The position numbers were made by a program, and so were the translations under genes. This document shows, piece by piece, positions 4,650-53,595 of a stretch of 64,000 bases of DNA; the first letter of the stretch is position 1, and every line of letters starts with the position of its first letter. The notes beneath the pieces are model-generated. The model had not been told where the DNA came from, did not search any database, and saw only the letters and a program-made list of their open reading frames with translations. The stretch covers positions 78,150-142,149 of the forward strand of contig JAUWMR010000002.1 in assembly GCA_030613055.1 (NCBI GenBank). Reading direction: 5' to 3'. This stretch comes from Desulfobacteraceae bacterium. Its GTDB lineage: Bacteria; Desulfobacterota; DSM-4660; Desulfatiglandales; Desulfatiglandaceae.

Positions 4650-7259
4650 TCAATTCGCATCTTCACTGAGATTTCGCGCCCTCTCAAGACCTTGCATAAC
4701 ATCCGGGTTTTCAGGATCAATCTCAAGTGCCCTTTTGTAAAAGGTTTTCGAACTGTCATACTGTTTGAGCGAAATACAAATATGGCCCATAATCAGCAGG
4801 CTTTCGATATCCTCAGGATCGGCTGCCAAAACCTTTGTGTAAATTTGCAGGGCTTCTTCAATACGACCCAATACAAAATAATAGAAGTCAGCAATGTTTT
4901 TCTGAAATGTGATATTTTCCGGTTCAAGACGGGCAGCATTTTTATAGTGCTTTAAAGCTTTTTCTTTGTTACCTCTTTTGTAAAAGAGTACTCCAAGATC
5001 GTTATGTGCCAGGGCGCAATCAGGATATTTATCAATTAATTGTTCAAGAGCATTGATTGCCTCGTCAGTCCGGCCGCGGGCTATCATAGATTGAATGATC
5101 TGATATATTTTTTCAGGAGATTTGGTTTTATAATCAACACTCGGGGCTGTTTTATTGACCTTCTTTTTTAAAATATTCTCCGGAATGCCTTTTGCCAGTA
5201 TATTCTTCTGGGCCTGATGCCGCTCTGCAATATGTGATATTATCCTTTTATTTAGAAAAATCGCATGCCCCTGAGTATCATTTGTATTAGATATCGGAGC
5301 AAACCCAAAATACTCAAAATGTTCTTCAAATAATCGATGGAATGAAACATTTGATCTATCCCTGTGACAAAAAACCTCCTTGTTTGTCATAAAATAGTTT
5401 ATCTTGATTTTAGACAAAAACTCGGGGGATATTGATGAATAAAACTGATGTTCCATTCCATGAATATTAAAGATAAGCATATCCGGTAATGGAAGGTCAT
5501 GGGATGAAACGAAATTTTCGAGGCTTCTGCATTCAGCGGAAATAGCTTTCCCTGATATTAAATTATATTGTTTCCCCATATGCATGCTCAAATTTGAATT
5601 TGAAATATCCATCACAAGAAGATCATAGCCATTTGTATCTGTTAATGCATATGGGAAAACCTCTACTCGTGTATCCTTATGAACTGCCTTTTTCAATTGG
5701 TCATAAACTTCCGTAACCGGCATAAAAAGGTATATCTTCTTTAAATTCATGAATAGATCAAAATATAATCTGCATTTATTTAAATCATAGACACCTACAG
5801 CATATAGAGTTTCAATTTTACCGGTTATCTCTTTTCCTCTATATTTTAATTCAAGCAACAAATCATCTTCATCATATACAAACTTTCCTTCCGGCCACCA
5901 TAAATCGCTATATTCGTATTTTGTATGTGTTCCATTCGGCTTCTTTTCCTGGCTATTATTCAATCCTTCTTGATGTTCAACGAGCTTACTCTCCCAGAGA
6001 TGTTTGTAATATTCTATCCGGAAAGACTGGAAGGGGAATCTAAGATTAACATCTTCAGCATTTTGTAAAAGATTGAGCGCCAGACCATAGTTGCCTCTGT
6101 TTGCTTCGATGAGCGCAAACCAGAAATAGATTATCCCATAACCAAAATTGACGCCGCCGGTGTGCAAATGGATGATTTCCTTAAAATGCATGTACATATC
6201 GTCATGTATTTCAGCAATGCGCGAATCGGCCAAAAGAGTTTCGGAATTTCTAATCTTATCCTCAGTATCTGGTGAAAGGGTTTCAAAGAAATCATTTTTT
6301 GTAATGGGCTTGTTTTTGAATATAAATTCGCTTAATTTTTCCACAGTTATCAATTCTCTGATGTTAACATTGAAATTTATTGCATCACCAACAAGTCCGT
6401 TAGCAAATGTGTAAATTTCAACTAAATCTACTGACCTTAGTTTATTGTTGTGATTATAATCCGTATCCCTCTCAAGGCTTATATCGATACCCTTTTTAGC
6501 CAGAAGATCAGATATAAATTCGACTGATTTATCTTCAAACTCTTTTCTGCTACCATATGGCAACTTTGTCTGATCCCATAAAAGGCCCAATTCATCGGCA
6601 ACTAATAAAGATAATGATTCCGGTTCAGTCTCGGCATGAAGCACATTTTCCAGGGATTGTGTGCGCGGCACAAAGACCAGGTCTTCAGCGGTTTTATTAC
6701 TTATTTCTTCGATATAATATTCAATCGCCGTGTCATTTAAGTGTATGCCGTCAATTTGAAGTAATTCATCCTTTGGAAGATTGTTCCTACCGAGAATATT
6801 ATTTAGAGGATTGATAACAACGATACCCTTTTCGACGCACCAGTCTGTTAACTTCTTGATGAATTTCCTGGAAAAATCGAAAACCATATCTTCAGGTATG
6901 CCATAAGTTTCAGAGCCATTTAATTGCTGGGGCGAAATAAGCCATCCGAAATTTCCCTTTGAATTCAATTCAAGGAAAATACTTTTATAAAGACCGATTA
7001 GTTCACCAAATGTCTGTTCATACCGATTTTCAGCATATGCTTTGCATAGCAAAAAAATATCATGCATGCCGATTGAAAGCATTTTCCAATCATCTGTTTT
7101 AAAAAACAGGGATCTGATTTCCCGGGCTGAAGAATGGTTTTTTAAAAAATGACCGGCGGTAATTGCACCTACCCATTTAACTTTAACCGGCTTATCTAAT
7201 TTTTCATATTTGAGCCGGGCCCTGAATATCGAAACATGGCTGTTTCCAGCTATAATCAT
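4650..7259 (-). CDS. SGNH-hydrolase / carrier-like / FkbM-like / TPR fusion protein
   Basis: The 869-residue protein appears to combine four modules. Residues 1-190 resemble an SGNH hydrolase: GNSH at 5-8, IGMHD at 63-67 and DGIHLN at 170-175, where Asp170 and His173 would be the catalytic pair. Residues about 235-318 look like an acyl/peptidyl carrier domain, with SVDLVEIY around Ser276. Residues about 455-675 resemble an FkbM methyltransferase core (CRSLENF..., LIFNIHGMEHQ) without a clear SAM glycine loop. Residues about 720-869 are TPRs. The ATG overlaps the stop of the DUF115 gene as ATGA, so the two are translationally coupled. Module calls are from motif reading; the carrier domain is the least certain. 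Function unknown, probably glycan modification. Confidence 0.7.
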   Translation of the reverse strand: MIIAGNSHVSIFRARLKYEKLDKPVKVKWVGAITAGHFLKNHSSAREIRSLFFKTDDWKMLSIGMHDIFLLCKAYAENRYEQTFGELIGLYKSIFLELNSKGNFGWLISPQQLNGSETYGIPEDMVFDFSRKFIKKLTDWCVEKGIVVINPLNNILGRNNLPKDELLQIDGIHLNDTAIEYYIEEISNKTAEDLVFVPRTQSLENVLHAETEPESLSLLVADELGLLWDQTKLPYGSRKEFEDKSVEFISDLLAKKGIDISLERDTDYNHNNKLRSVDLVEIYTFANGLVGDAINFNVNIRELITVEKLSEFIFKNKPITKNDFFETLSPDTEDKIRNSETLLADSRIAEIHDDMYMHFKEIIHLHTGGVNFGYGIIYFWFALIEANRGNYGLALNLLQNAEDVNLRFPFQSFRIEYYKHLWESKLVEHQEGLNNSQEKKPNGTHTKYEYSDLWWPEGKFVYDEDDLLLELKYRGKEITGKIETLYAVGVYDLNKCRLYFDLFMNLKKIYLFMPVTEVYDQLKKAVHKDTRVEVFPYALTDTNGYDLLVMDISNSNLSMHMGKQYNLISGKAISAECRSLENFVSSHDLPLPDMLIFNIHGMEHQFYSSISPEFLSKIKINYFMTNKEVFCHRDRSNVSFHRLFEEHFEYFGFAPISNTNDTQGHAIFLNKRIISHIAERHQAQKNILAKGIPENILKKKVNKTAPSVDYKTKSPEKIYQIIQSMIARGRTDEAINALEQLIDKYPDCALAHNDLGVLFYKRGNKEKALKHYKNAARLEPENITFQKNIADFYYFVLGRIEEALQIYTKVLAADPEDIESLLIMGHICISLKQYDSSKTFYKRALEIDPENPDVMQGLERARNLSEDAN

Positions 7260-48492: not shown

Positions 48493-49503
48493 TCATTTCA
48501 GAAAATGTACTCCGAATTTCCGGCAGTGCCTTATAATGTCGGATCTCAGGAGTCTAAAGGGATAGAACCACAACTGCATTTTAAAACGTGGTTTATCGAA
48601 TACTGTTTTTTGACCCAGTTCACGGTAGGCCGAAAGTCTTTTGTTGGGCGGCGCGCCAAATCGGGGACATCGGTTTTTAAGGCTCTCTTTCAAGACGGCG
48701 TGCAGTTTCTGGTTTCGTGGGCAATAATCCTGCGGATAAGAAGGTGTCCAGAAAAGGGGTGTCTTTATCCCGCGCCAGAGTGTTTCCAGCTTCCATATCT
48801 TTCTTAGCAAGGCGTCGTCATCTGCAACTTCGGCCAAAGGCCTTTTGAACAATACCTGTCTATATACATCAACAAAATAAACATCTTGCCCTTTTCTGAT
48901 TTCCGCTATGGTATGCGGCGATGTTTTTGTAGTATTGTCCCATAGATAGACTACCTGGGTTTCCCATCCCATCTGGTAAGCAAGTTCACAGAACACCCAC
49001 GCCTGCCTGTCGCAAACGCCATATCCTCTTTGCCAGATAACATAAGGCCAGGGAATATCCTTGAATCCTTTTTCATCGGGCTTAACTTTCTTAACTACCG
49101 TTTGAAACAGTGCCTTGATGTTGTTCGGGTCATCATTAGTGATGTCCCGAGATATGTGATGGAAAAAACATGCGTATCGCCATAATTCGAAATCCCAGAA
49201 ATTGAATGGTGCGGTAAAAAACGGGCCTTTGATGCCTTCATGTTCAGCTAACTTTAGATGCTGCTGCGGTATGGAACCGGGTACGGTTTCAGGCACCAGT
49301 TTACGGGCCAGGGAAATGGCAGTATCAAGATCATTTCCGGTAACCGAGGAAAGCCACTGTTCCGACACCATAATGCGTGTTTCCTTGCCCGGCGCGTCTG
49401 CGGCCAGGGCACACTCGTTATGCCCTGACAGGGGTACGACTGCAATAAATGCAATTGCAATTAGTCCTGTCTTCCATGTCATTTGATATTTTCGTGGTAA
49501 CAT
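48493..49503 (-). CDS. Secreted transglutaminase-like protein
   Basis: A signal peptide (TGLIAIAFIAVVPLSGHNECALAA) starts this 336-residue protein. The centre has a papain-like Cys-His-Asp arrangement typical of transglutaminase-like domains: GYGVCDRQAWVFCELAYQMG, then PHTIAEI, then YFVDVYRQ. Such domains act as cysteine proteases or crosslinkers; the substrate is unknown. A second in-frame ATG is 21 bp downstream of the first (49501-49503). It lies next to the island boundary but on the chromosomal side. Confidence 0.75.
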   Translation of the reverse strand: MLPRKYQMTWKTGLIAIAFIAVVPLSGHNECALAADAPGKETRIMVSEQWLSSVTGNDLDTAISLARKLVPETVPGSIPQQHLKLAEHEGIKGPFFTAPFNFWDFELWRYACFFHHISRDITNDDPNNIKALFQTVVKKVKPDEKGFKDIPWPYVIWQRGYGVCDRQAWVFCELAYQMGWETQVVYLWDNTTKTSPHTIAEIRKGQDVYFVDVYRQVLFKRPLAEVADDDALLRKIWKLETLWRGIKTPLFWTPSYPQDYCPRNQKLHAVLKESLKNRCPRFGAPPNKRLSAYRELGQKTVFDKPRFKMQLWFYPFRLLRSDIIRHCRKFGVHFLK

Positions 49504-49780: not shown

Positions 49781-49828
49781 TACTGGTGCCCCCGGCATGA
49801 CTCGAACATGCGGCACCCAGATTAGGAA
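49781..49828. repeat. Left direct repeat of tRNA-Arg 3' part (att site)
   Basis: These 48 bp are identical to 53516-53563, which cover the 3' end of tRNA-Arg(CCT) up to the anticodon loop, plus 3 bp outside. The copy here does not continue into a full tRNA: after base 49828 the sequence diverges. It marks the far end of a 3.7-kb insertion. Confidence 0.85.
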
Positions 49829-49937
49829 ACAGTTCCAGGGGGTGCCGCTAAAATGGGGGAGTCACTTAACTTATTGATTTTATTATGTCGGGGTAGTATA
49901 AACAATATAACGAAAATAGGCAAAAAAAATAATTACT

Positions 49938-49967
49938 GTCACATTTTGTCACATTTTGTCACATTTT
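49938..49967. repeat. Three tandem copies of GTCACATTTT
   Basis: Perfect decamers at 49938, 49948 and 49958, just inside the left att repeat. One more copy (53466-53475) lies in the last codons of the integrase remnant beside the right att repeat. Helically phased direct repeats near both ends look like arm-type recombinase sites, which is an inference. Confidence 0.6.
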
Positions 49968-50092
49968 TGGGGATATGCTGTTATTTCATGATGTAAAATA
50001 AAAAACGCAAAAACACACTTTTTCCTTGATATTATAAAAAAAAAGACGATAATAGTATCAATCATCCCATTGAGCGCCTGTGCCTCAGTGGC

Positions 50093-50122
50093 CCCGAATC
50101 CCAGAGGGTTCGGGTTTTTTTT
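50093..50122 (+). terminator. Rho-independent terminator upstream of the NYN gene
   Basis: CCCGAA-T-CCC, loop AGA, GGG-TTCGGG, then eight Ts: a 9-bp stem with one bulge. It ends 17 bp before the NYN start codon, so it may close a short leader transcript (attenuator-like) or insulate the gene from upstream reading. No gene is seen between 49829 and 50139. Confidence 0.7.
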
Positions 50123-50139
50123 GCTAAAAGGAGCGAGGT

Positions 50140-50778
50140 ATGATGAGGACAATATTTTTCTTTGATGGATTTAATGTATATCACTCCTTAAATATTTATT
50201 CTAAAATCAATGGAAAGAGGAAAAAATCCTATAATAAATATAAATGGCTGAACTTATACCGCTTGGCGCAATTATTTATTAGAAAAGATGATATCCTTGC
50301 TGATGTATACTATTTCACTGCCTATGCTACTTGGCTGCCTGATTCAATGAAAAGACACAGGGTACTTGTTAAAGCCCTTCAATATGCAGGGGTAAAAGTT
50401 GTTTTAGGGGTATTCAAAGATAAAGACAAGTTTTGTCCACTATGTAAGAGGCCATATCGGACAAAAGAAGAAAAACAGACCGATGTAAATATAGCTCTTT
50501 ACCTCTTTAGAGAAGCTTTTTTAGATAGGTATGATAAAGCGTTCCTGGTAACTGTTGACAGCGATTTAGTACCAGCAATTGAATTAGTCAAAAAAACATT
50601 TCCTGAAAAGGAGATTATTCTCCTTACTCCAATAGGAAGAAACTCTTTTGCACTAAAACAGGTTTGTGATTTCAGGATGAAAATAAAAGAGAAACACTTA
50701 ATAACCAGCCAGTTCCCTGACACAATTTCTCTCAGCGATGGTGCAAAGCTTCAGCGACCTTCTGAATGGAATCAATAA
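50140..50778 (+). CDS. NYN-domain (PIN-like) nuclease family protein
   Basis: FFFDGFNVYHSL near the N-terminus, KQTDVNIALYLFREAF in the middle and FLVTVDSDLVPAIELVKK give the conserved aspartates of NYN/LabA-like PIN-fold ribonucleases. An inserted CPLCKRPY segment suggests a small zinc-binding knuckle. The ATG has a strong AAAGGAGCGAGGT site. 212 residues, no signal peptide. It is the first gene of the tRNA-Arg island and AT-rich compared with the flanking core genes. Families of this type act in RNA decay and in phage defence; role here unproven. Confidence 0.85.
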   Translation: MMRTIFFFDGFNVYHSLNIYSKINGKRKKSYNKYKWLNLYRLAQLFIRKDDILADVYYFTAYATWLPDSMKRHRVLVKALQYAGVKVVLGVFKDKDKFCPLCKRPYRTKEEKQTDVNIALYLFREAFLDRYDKAFLVTVDSDLVPAIELVKKTFPEKEIILLTPIGRNSFALKQVCDFRMKIKEKHLITSQFPDTISLSDGAKLQRPSEWNQ

Positions 50779-51009
50779 AAACTGTTATTGTTCAAACTAA
50801 ATTTTGTCAAGCCTACAAGATTTTTCCACATCCCCATCACATGATCTGTTATCCCCGCGTTCATTGATAGAGTTTTTTCCCGTCCAAACGAAAACAATCT
50901 GAGCTAACAATTTCCTTTTAAAACAAATACTTGACAAAGATTTGAAAATGCAATTGAACTCTGAGGATCGGGCTGGCCTGCGCTTTTATTTGCTCTTTCA
51001 AAACTGAAT

Positions 51010-51146
51010 ACCCGTAAGGAAGCCGAGGTTAGCACCCTGGCAGAAAAGGCGTGTAAGTCACTCAAGACAACAAATCCCGAAAGGGAGGGATGAAATAGAG
51101 TGTCCCGTCAAGGCGGGTCGCAAGCCTAAGCGAAAAATGGCATTTT
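51010..51146 (+). ncRNA. Candidate structured RNA in the island (omega-RNA/HEARO-like architecture)
   Basis: A non-coding stretch with nested helices that can be read directly: GCCGAGG/CCCTGGC (51022-51041), an outer AGGC/GCCT pair (51047-51050 with 51124-51127), CACTC/GAGTG (51059-51063 with 51098-51102), a GNRA hairpin TCCC-GAAA-GGGA (51075-51086) and CCCG/CGGG (51104-51117). A TTGACA box lies at 50931-50936, with no clear -10. The layout just upstream of a mobile gene recalls the guide-RNA scaffolds of IscB elements (HEARO RNAs), but no IscB gene is present. The type is a recollection-based guess; the structure itself is seen. The rest of 50779-51199 has no gene. Confidence 0.5.
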
Positions 51147-51199
51147 AAAAATATAAAATAGATATTGAATGTTTTATTTCAGTAATATAAAATAAATTT

Positions 51200-52225
51200 A
51201 TGACTGTTTTAGTAGCGCTATCAACAAAAGATTCATTGGTAATGGGATGCGATAGTCTCGGTTCTGTAACAAGGGATTTGGTCGATCCATTTGATCTTCT
51301 TCCAGATTTTTTTGAGACGAAAGATGATTGGAGCCTCAAAGTTGATAAAGAAGGGAATCCCACCCTCAAAACATTCCAGGATATATATAAAAAAGCTCAA
51401 TCAGTGCCCTTCAACCACATGCCTCATGTTACTAAATTATTTCCTCTTGATCCTCTTGAGATGGGAGTTATGATCACTGGCATTGCATCAATTGGTGAAA
51501 GGACAATCAAAAGCCTAATAAACGAATTTAAAAATAATGATATCGCATTCAATAAAAATAAAAAACCTGCAAATTATGCGGTGAAGAAAGTAGCAGGAAG
51601 GTTGTTGAAATTTATTGATCCATTTTACCAAAAGGAGTATGAAAAATTGAGAGGGAAACCTCCTTTGGAATTCATGATTGGGGGATATGATAAGAGGGCT
51701 CAATTACCAAAGATTTTTAGAATTTTTTTCCATAAAGAAAAACAATCGGATAGATTGGAGCAAAACCTTACGGATTCTTTTGGAATCGCATTTGGGGGCC
51801 AAACGCAGGAGATCGAGAGAATTGTTTTTGGCACAGATAATGCAAATAGATTAAATATAATAAAAAGGATTGTCAGTCTCTTTGACGTATATAAACAAAT
51901 TCTACAGGATTTTCTAAAAGAAAAAGGAATAGATGAAGAATTACCCCCTTCATCCGACTACATTGACAAATTACATCCTTTTAAAGAATGGGGTTTATAT
52001 AGTTTCGATGCGAATTGGGGGGATTTTTCTGAACAAAATGCAATTGATTGTGTAAATTTTTTTGTTGAAATTATGATAAAATCACAGCAGTTTAGTACAA
52101 GCATGCCTACAGTCGGAGGCCCTGTTCATATTGGCCTAATAACTAAACAACATGGATTCAAATTCATATCAAAAGAAATGTATGAACATGAAGGGTTTGC
52201 AACCCCAATAAGGAGAGAAAAATGA
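51200..52225 (+). CDS. Proteasome-like Ntn-hydrolase
   Basis: MTVLVALSTKDSLVMGCDS starts the 341-residue protein with the beta-subunit pattern of proteasome/HslV hydrolases. After removal of Met1, Thr2 would be the catalytic N-terminal nucleophile, and Asp18 falls exactly at the Asp17 position of the family. HVTKLFPLDPLEMGVMITGIASIGERT carries Lys79 in the place of catalytic Lys33, after an insertion of about 45 residues. The total is longer than HslV (about 175) or Anbu (about 240). There is no partner ATPase nearby. No clear ribosome-binding site. It is coupled by a 4-bp overlap to the next gene. Fold assignment is by motif; substrate unknown. Confidence 0.7.
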   Translation: MTVLVALSTKDSLVMGCDSLGSVTRDLVDPFDLLPDFFETKDDWSLKVDKEGNPTLKTFQDIYKKAQSVPFNHMPHVTKLFPLDPLEMGVMITGIASIGERTIKSLINEFKNNDIAFNKNKKPANYAVKKVAGRLLKFIDPFYQKEYEKLRGKPPLEFMIGGYDKRAQLPKIFRIFFHKEKQSDRLEQNLTDSFGIAFGGQTQEIERIVFGTDNANRLNIIKRIVSLFDVYKQILQDFLKEKGIDEELPPSSDYIDKLHPFKEWGLYSFDANWGDFSEQNAIDCVNFFVEIMIKSQQFSTSMPTVGGPVHIGLITKQHGFKFISKEMYEHEGFATPIRREK

Positions 52226-52410
52226 GAGAATCAATGAAATATATTACGGTCGAGGAACGCAATTTATATGAGAGATTAGCGAAACAATATAATATTAAAG
52301 GTTATTCGGCTCCAGTATCCATTATATGTAATTCTAATAAAAATAAACTCCAAAAAGGGAAAATACCAAAAACAGAAACCCAAGAACTGAGTAAGTGGAT
52401 ATCGAAATAA
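52222..52410 (+). CDS. Small basic protein coupled to the Ntn-hydrolase
   Basis: The 62-residue product (MRESMKYITVEERNLYERL...) is basic and Lys/Asn-rich with a likely helical first third. Its ATG overlaps the Ntn-hydrolase stop as ATGA, so the two are made together. No family is recognised. It could be a regulator, substrate or adaptor of the hydrolase. A second ATG five codons in is an alternative start. Confidence 0.6.
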   Translation: MRESMKYITVEERNLYERLAKQYNIKGYSAPVSIICNSNKNKLQKGKIPKTETQELSKWISK

Positions 52411-52449
52411 TCTGTGATAGGCAAGATCCGATCTTACAATTAATCTTTT

Positions 52450-52727
52450 TTATTTGTTGCTCATTTTTCCTACGACAATTCCCACGCACCTGCTTCCATT
52501 GCGGGTGCTATCCTTAATATCCCAGGAAAGGCATTCAAGCAAATACCGTGTATATTTGGCCTCACTCTTAGCAATTTGCTCTTTAAGTTCCGCAATCATA
52601 AATCTGATCCCTTCGGAAGATAGTGGTCCTACACTTTCCAAGACAAAAATAGCAGCTTGGAGACCTTTATTGAAAACTTAGTTGCTTCCCTTTCCGTCAA
52701 TAAGTTTTGATATTTTTTGTTCTCCAT
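52450..52727 (-). pseudogene. Frameshifted small gene (about 92 codons)
   Basis: A good start (ATG at 52725-52727 after AAAGGGGGTATCATC) reads MENKKYQNLLTEREATKFS and then hits a stop after 32 codons. A second frame takes over near 52680 and continues AAIFVLESVGPLSSEGIRF... to the stop at 52450 (helical, Glu/Lys-rich, then ending in GRC..VGKM). One base shift would join them into one protein. It may be a pseudogene or, less likely, a programmed frameshift. Minus strand, opposite to the other island genes. Confidence 0.5.
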
Positions 52728-52941
52728 GATGATACCCCCTTTCTGAAATTGATACAAAAAGACCTCAGCAAATAATGTGCCAGGGATTGGGGGAAGGTCT
52801 CAATTTTATTAAAAGTGTGAAAACCATTATTCACGGGGGTTTTAAAGAGGCAAACAACTGAAGGATTGGCTTGAAAAGGCGGGGGGCTTGAAGGGCTGCG
52901 CAATTTTTAGGCTTCATTATTTAATTAGGAGGTTTTGCCCG

Positions 52942-53148
52942 ATGAATCCAGAACAAGATAAAAGACAAAGAAACGAAACAACCTTTTTTGTGTTTTGTGC
53001 CCTTATCGGATTGGTGGGAGTGTGGTTATGGACAGAAAGCGTGGGAGCTGTCCTTACATTATTTGGTTTAGCCACGTTGATTGGTGAATGTACTTCAGCT
53101 ATTACCCGCCGATTGGACGCTATAATTGGCAAGGAGAGAGTATTATGA
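52942..53148 (+). CDS. Small two-helix membrane protein
   Basis: The ATG at 52942 lies 10 bp after a perfect AGGAGG. The 68-residue product starts with a polar, charged stretch (MNPEQDKRQRNE), then two hydrophobic helices (TFFVFCALIGLVGVWLW and VGAVLTLFGLATLIGECTSA), and a basic end. No family is recognised. It precedes the integrase remnant. Between 52728 and 52941 nothing else is visible. Confidence 0.6.
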   Translation: MNPEQDKRQRNETTFFVFCALIGLVGVWLWTESVGAVLTLFGLATLIGECTSAITRRLDAIIGKERVL

Positions 53149-53213
53149 AAAACCAGAATTGAGGCTTACAATGAAAGGGGGAACGATATGAAAGACAGTT
53201 TAAAATGGATTGA

Positions 53214-53504
53214 AAAAATAGGGAACCCAAAAGAAAGGCTTATGCACATGGTTTTGGAATTGCCGGATTCCATGACCTGAGACACACCTTTGCAAGCCAT
53301 GCAATCATGAGAGGGGCAAGCTTAAAAGATGTTCAGGAGGTACTCGGTCACAAGACTATGACAATGACCCTCAGGTATTCTCACCTTACCCAGGAACACA
53401 AAAAGAAAGCGGTCAATCTCTTGAATGGATTGACCGCCTCTGCTGACGGTTTATGTCACAAAACTGTCACATTTTATCAAGTCACAATTTCGGCCACCAG
53501 CTAA
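53214..53504 (+). pseudogene. Tyrosine recombinase (integrase), C-terminal remnant
   Basis: The frame reads GFHDLRHTFASHAIMRGASL (the HxxR box), EVLGHKTMTMTLRYSHLTQEH (the H..., then the catalytic Tyr in RYSHL) and a tail ending CHKTVTF. The first catalytic Arg and the core N-terminal part are missing; the frame is closed by a TGA at 53211-53213. Just upstream a short frame (53188-53280, MKDSLKWIEKIG...) with its own GGGGG site overlaps it in another register, so the 5' part was replaced. It ends 14 bp before the tRNA-Arg 3' end, the usual place for an integrase gene. Confidence 0.8.
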
Positions 53505-53515
53505 CTTATTGAATA

Positions 53516-53563
53516 TACTGGTGCCCCCGGCATGACTCGAACATGCGGCACCCAGATTAGGAA
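53516..53563. repeat. Right direct repeat inside tRNA-Arg (att site)
   Basis: Identical over 48 bp to 49781-49828. It covers the CCA end, acceptor 3' strand, T-arm and anticodon 3' part of the intact tRNA gene. Recombination in the anticodon loop region keeps the tRNA intact, as is common for tRNA-targeting tyrosine integrases. Confidence 0.85.
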
Positions 53564-53595
53564 TCTGGCGCTCTATCCACCTGAGCTACGGGGGC
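53519..53595 (-). tRNA. tRNA-Arg (anticodon CCT)
   Basis: On the minus strand a 7-bp acceptor stem (GCCCCCG...CGGGGGC), D-arm GCTCAGGTGGATAGAGC, anticodon arm CCAGA-TTCCTAA-TCTGG with CCT, T-arm with TTCGAGT and an encoded CCA end. 77 bases including CCA. It hosts the 3.7-kb island at its 3' end. Confidence 0.95.

Follow-up and report, generated by a model that had tools for sequence, protein, structure and literature searches.

In 2021 Fuchs, Alva and Lupas described 22 new proteasome-like groups (PMC8665760). In that paper the PMI group was assigned no function, and no functionally suggestive genomic context was found for it; PMI-2 to PMI-6 have an H3/H4 insertion in common, PMI-5 and PMI-6 carry a further insertion between strands S3 and S4, that of PMI-6 was likened to the two-helix insertion of connectase, and PMI-4 was reported from phages (PMC8665760).

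The window analysed here, a stretch of 64,000 nucleotides from a Desulfobacteraceae bacterium, encodes a hydrolase that belongs with this PMI group of proteasome homologues. The two have in common the proteasome-beta fold, the residues Thr/Ser1, Asp17 and Lys33, the lack of a propeptide, and the S3/S4 and H3/H4 insertions, and the present family, like PMI-4, has members in phages. With PMI-5 and PMI-6 (WP_179179973.1 or WP_103790100.1) the comparison is one of described architecture. The PMI paper (PMC8665760) contains no coupled small gene, which is the feature found here. A preliminary description of the locus had called it undescribed; this holds for the pair of hydrolase and small gene, apparently new to the literature, and fails for the enzyme group, known since 2021.

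Three other relatives can be set beside it. HslV is an Ntn threonine hydrolase of the same superfamily and, like the present family, lacks the Ser169 motif, but it is followed by the ATPase HslU (in the window's own genome at locus L035), whereas the window hydrolase has two insertions and no ATPase. Anbu is matched by the hydrolase model (Foldseek match to 5nyw, E = 6e-6); it has a C-terminal coiled-coil helix, and the window hydrolase has instead the S3/S4 and H3/H4 insertions and a small partner. Connectase has a proteasome-beta fold and an insertion at the S3/S4 site, but it is an archaeal ligase without H1-H2, and the window hydrolase is likened to it by fold and insertion site alone.

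The hydrolase gene and its island

The features of the locus are as follows.

49781..49828, no strand: left copy of a perfect direct repeat of 48 bp that resembles an attachment site and matches the 3' end of tRNA-Arg
50140..50778, plus strand: NYN-domain nuclease gene (PADLOC HEC-09), a co-passenger outside the hydrolase-partner unit
50779..51199, plus strand: intergenic leader, RNA structure unsupported
51200..52225, plus strand: proteasome-beta-like Ntn hydrolase gene, 341 aa, PMI-5/PMI-6-like architecture
52222..52225, plus strand: ATGA stop/start overlap of the hydrolase and partner genes, translational coupling
52222..52410, plus strand: coupled partner gene, 62 aa, pI 9.76, predicted unfolded (charge-hydropathy), homologue in locus L022
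53265..53504, plus strand: decayed tyrosine recombinase (integrase) gene, of which a C-terminal fragment with 44 of 172 Pfam positions is left
53516..53563, no strand: right copy of the same 48-bp repeat, in overlap with the intact tRNA-Arg gene
53519..53595, minus strand: tRNA-Arg (CCT), integration target of the island

Both open reading frames of the preliminary description are real and present as it gave them, 341 aa at 51200-52225 and 62 aa at 52222-52410. The longer chain starts Met-Thr, and because an in-frame TAA lies four codons 5' of the ATG, a propeptide is impossible. The predicted nucleophile, Thr2, is Thr1 after removal of Met; Asp18 corresponds to Asp17 and Lys79 to Lys33. All three are invariant in the mid-length homologues (14/14). 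In an alignment of 33 divergent homologues Asp18, Ser19 and Lys79 never vary and only Thr or Ser occurs at position 2, so that the proteasome pattern of Thr, Asp and Lys that had been read from the single sequence is kept in all 33. The spacing from Asp to Lys is 61, compared with 16 in the canonical proteasome, and the proposed insertion of 45 residues is therefore correct. The S3/S4 insertion site falls between Asp17 and Lys33, and alignment and model place both insertions in the window hydrolase: the 45 residues between Asp18 and Lys79, where the model predicts two short helices (30-37 and 59-63), and a long H3 (214-241) with a loop before H4 (278-298). Proteasome Asp166 and Ser169 are not conserved, VGG replacing SGG, and the HslV of the window's own genome likewise lacks equivalents of both. 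The charge of the window hydrolase is near neutral. In one related record, OR188720.1 (L010, 6001-7020), the public annotation begins the hydrolase at 6163 instead of at the TTG at 6001, and the catalytic Thr and Asp are lost.

Searches with the window hydrolase as a single sequence gave no significant match in Pfam or NCBIfam and none in the PDB; the Pfam model PF00227 does not match it, and within the same genome matches HslV only. The significant PDB matches of a family profile of 33 sequences are proteasome subunits only, including 1fnt_H (yeast beta1, E = 1.3e-4) and 1pma_B (Thermoplasma beta subunit, E = 0.004); the single non-proteasome match is not significant. AlphaFold2 modelled the protein from the 33-sequence alignment with a pLDDT of 85.8 and a pTM of 0.81 (an earlier, poor model from 14 sequences, pLDDT 58, was set aside), and the best 50 PDB matches listed by Foldseek for this model are proteasome subunits or Anbu (top E = 1.9e-7, probability 1.00). 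Model, Foldseek and profile matches support the four-layer alpha-beta-beta-alpha fold of proteasome beta subunits. The preliminary description had proposed a proteasome-like Ntn fold, and had named its absence, or that of the three residues, as the result that would speak against it; this was looked for, and the fold, in the predicted structure and the PDB profile search, and Thr/Ser2, Asp18 and Lys79 were all found. By its residues, profile matches and model, the 341-aa protein is a proteasome-beta-type Ntn hydrolase, with predicted enzymatic activity.

The nearest relatives are found in a Desulfarculus genome (57% identity) and in four other genomes (48-52%), and 17 of 395 genomes of the window's phylum match the hydrolase profile, some with distant forms. 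Viral scans with the window hydrolase alone or with its close clade found no phage relatives. Pseudomonas phages encode relatives at about 24% identity, one record being annotated 'proteasome subunit beta', and 79 viral contigs carry forms of two sizes, about 280 aa or about 420 aa. The 420-aa form, with its Lys at position 34 in canonical spacing, is probably PMI-4.

The stretch 49781-53563 is a decayed integrative island. Its 3.7 kb between the 48-bp repeats hold the NYN gene, the hydrolase-partner pair and the integrase remnant, and the mobile island that had been suggested is confirmed by the tRNA-Arg repeat, the integrase fragment, and a G+C content of 37% compared with 46% in the flanks. 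Just beyond the island, 48493-49503 encodes a protein with, by eye, a transglutaminase-like look (GVCDRQAW motif).

No PADLOC model matches the hydrolase or its partner; only the NYN neighbour is matched, by HEC-09 over its full length (E = 1.1e-53), HECs being Hma-embedded defence candidates (PMC12988326). Of 385 genomes examined from the phylum, 32 have the NYN gene, and several of its relatives contain one internal stop codon. The preliminary description had suggested it, with a structured RNA, as part of the module, and neither proposal stood. A PMI gene is absent from all 14 NYN flanks retrieved from other genomes, no NYN gene adjoins the closest hydrolase homologues, and no PMI locus outside the island has a close NYN relative. 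The NYN gene is therefore an independent passenger, and besides the pair the island thus contains a single listed defence candidate. The leader upstream of the hydrolase gene folds no more stably than its shuffles (z-score -0.56) and has no Rfam match, and we rejected the structured RNA; the best match of the leader in the phylum sample is a piece of 59 nt (51089-51147), which recurs with 81% identity in a second genome from the window's taxonomic order (L163, 1501-1559). That copy adjoins an apparent PEP-CTERM protein gene and has no Rfam match. A promoter-like match at 51165-51193, a consensus match alone, would yield a nearly leaderless mRNA.

The coupled small gene

The overlap of the two genes in ATGA, which had been noted from the sequence, is common to both reading frames at 52222-52225, and a clear Shine-Dalgarno sequence, AAGGAGAG, precedes the ATG of the 62-aa gene. 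In L022 the gene for the 57%-identical hydrolase is followed by one for a homologue of the 62-aa protein (E = 7e-7), so the small gene is real. A comparable overlapping frame follows the L025 hydrolase, and a conserved gene for a 66-aa protein overlaps phage hydrolase genes; of the five closest members of full length, two (L023 and L024) have no recognisable partner. At L002 (546-1491) a MazE/MazF pair and an 85-aa open reading frame precede the closest homologue, the latter frame stopping 9 nt before the hydrolase.

The preliminary description had proposed a neighbourhood survey for conserved pairing, and the pairing turns out to extend far wider than could be known from one sequence. An open reading frame counted as a qualifying partner if it encoded 35-95 aa, began no more than 25 nt from the stop codon of the hydrolase gene, and had either a Shine-Dalgarno sequence or an ATG in overlap with that gene. 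The 97 family members fall into 59 clusters at 60% identity, and 50 of these show such a frame, compared with 45 of 345 control clusters of other long genes from the same loci (odds ratio 37, p = 3.7e-28, the clusters not being fully independent). When the downstream DNA was shuffled, 15% still gave a qualifying frame. Two of the nine negative clusters contain a frame that falls outside the rule, one of 67 aa with a weak ribosome site (L041) and one that overlaps more deeply (L147), and the true pairing rate may therefore be higher.

As the rule was set after the first examples had been seen, we checked a second set of phage, satellite, plasmid and E. coli loci from annotated collections. Here the small frame is present in 11 of 12 loci, or 10 of 12 under a strict 35-aa floor, and several of these frames had been annotated by the depositors. 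In the twelfth locus (Mesorhizobium, L121) the hydrolase itself ends in some 50 residues of basic, low-complexity sequence, which may be a fused partner. PGAP annotation misses the small partner in several loci, including E. coli H3, whose prophage encodes the hydrolase WP_000123148.1 and an unannotated frame of 49 aa (within L181, 5957-7420). No qualifying partner was seen beside five proteasome-like genes that are more distant and encode 208-249 aa (L140, L142, L154, L156 and L158), so pairing is not general among proteasome homologues.

The small genes are protein-coding and evolve faster than the enzyme. In seven groups nearly every comparison gives a pN/pS of about 0.1-0.6, indicating purifying selection, and pN usually exceeds that of the adjacent hydrolase gene. 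The small proteins fall into 48 sequence families, whose members adjoin hydrolases of similar length, and no motif common to the 48 was found; a shared C-terminal amphipathic helix, plausible by eye, was no better than shuffles and was rejected. The partners are basic on average and the hydrolases acidic. By charge-hydropathy, a crude rule, 69% of the partners are predicted unfolded, compared with 17% of 41 annotated small phage proteins (Fisher p = 1.3e-7).

Genomic settings and possible function

The pairs recur in prophages, phage satellites, plasmids and bacterial genomes. In LESphi2 the pair is last and oriented against the structural genes, in the Streptococcus satellite phage Javan468 it lies near the distal end, and in a Providencia phage it stands between antiterminator Q and holin. 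A related gene is present in 22 of 5426 E. coli genomes, and the three E. coli loci examined are all in lambdoid prophages. Some of these prophage pairs abut the late operon, in the antiterminator-holin region, and one lies directly behind an HTH repressor-like gene, that is, in the rex position: in lambda, rexAB lies behind the repressor gene. The pair resembles rex-type prophage cargo in standing beside the repressor or against the late operon, and is presumably expressed in the lysogen, but RexA and RexB are proteins unrelated to it.

No third conserved neighbour was found among 95 neighbours scanned, and no linked ATPase; as had been claimed for the window, none is seen in the island either. 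Known defence genes, methyltransferases excepted, are not enriched in the neighbourhoods. The Pseudomonas small protein occurs, in the phage collection, in all 16 hydrolase-bearing records and in one more, CF34a (L161), where no hydrolase was found upstream and the small gene is a start-less remnant, suggesting that the cargo site is variable. On two rhizobial plasmids (L121 and L125), and on these only, genes for a multiubiquitin-domain protein and a ThiF-family E1 lie within a few kb of a long-form hydrolase.

The reading that we tentatively prefer, to which we give somewhat less than an even chance, is that the PMI hydrolase and a small partner of regulator type form a self-contained mobile module that interferes with competing phages as cargo. 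By the general rule, methionine aminopeptidase would expose Thr1 at once, and propeptide removal would be unnecessary. As no ATPase is linked, the hydrolase probably acts on unfolded peptides or on one specific protein, not on folded bulk substrate. The partner, coupled in translation, may bind the hydrolase as a trans-acting regulator, an inhibitor or an assembly factor replacing the missing propeptide. Carried by prophages, satellites and islands, the pair would interfere with competing phages once the partner is lost, displaced or cleaved. The hypothesis of a defence role is favoured by these locations. That the pairs amount to a widespread, unrecognised phage-conflict system, in which a hydrolase borne as mobile cargo is controlled by, or ligates, its own fast-evolving disordered micro-protein, is a broader proposal that we regard as possible but doubtful.

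The small protein might instead be a dedicated substrate, either cleaved or ligated to targets in the manner of connectase, making the pair a one-enzyme tagging system. Such a role would suit a small, basic, fast-evolving partner that is mostly predicted to be disordered, as well as the S3/S4 insertion of the window hydrolase, which lies at the site of connectase's specificity insertion, has two short predicted helices, and recalls the connectase-like insertion reported for PMI-6 (PMC8665760). However, short and long family members have a partner without having the S3/S4 insertion, and the small proteins yielded no common recognition motif; we consider this reading unlikely. Equally unlikely, in our estimate, is an addiction or abortive-infection system of toxin-antitoxin type, with the free hydrolase toxic and the partner its antitoxin. 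The antitoxin comes first in most toxin-antitoxin operons, but here the enzyme gene does; moreover, a few homologues have no partner and the closest already has a MazEF pair next door, all of which tells against a resemblance that lies in tight two-gene coupling, mobile settings and a fast-evolving basic partner.

A shade less probable still is a role outside phage conflict, with the hydrolase as an accessory protease in the physiology of lysogen or host and the small protein as its assembly chaperone. No functional context was reported for PMI (PMC8665760), and the window's genome encodes a separate HslVU elsewhere, so that bulk proteolysis is covered, both of which fit such a role; for a physiological protease, however, it would be unusual to occur so sporadically and to sit at the cargo positions of prophages, satellites and islands. 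Finally, although the small proteins are too diverse for a family-wide alignment and several are unannotated by PGAP, it is highly improbable that the small frame is a chance or regulatory one with no protein partner, given that seven groups show purifying selection, that Shine-Dalgarno and overlap statistics greatly exceed those of shuffles and control genes, and that the L022 homologue is detectable (E = 7e-7).

The PMI homologues were previously without known context or function, and the conserved partner provides the first experimental handle on them. Two genes are well suited to joint cloning, co-purification and deletion, and natural pairs are available, including those of E. coli prophages. 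If the phage-conflict reading is true, proteasome-type chemistry would be added to the means of bacterial defence, and the partner would reveal what controls an enzyme of this kind when it has neither ATPase nor propeptide.
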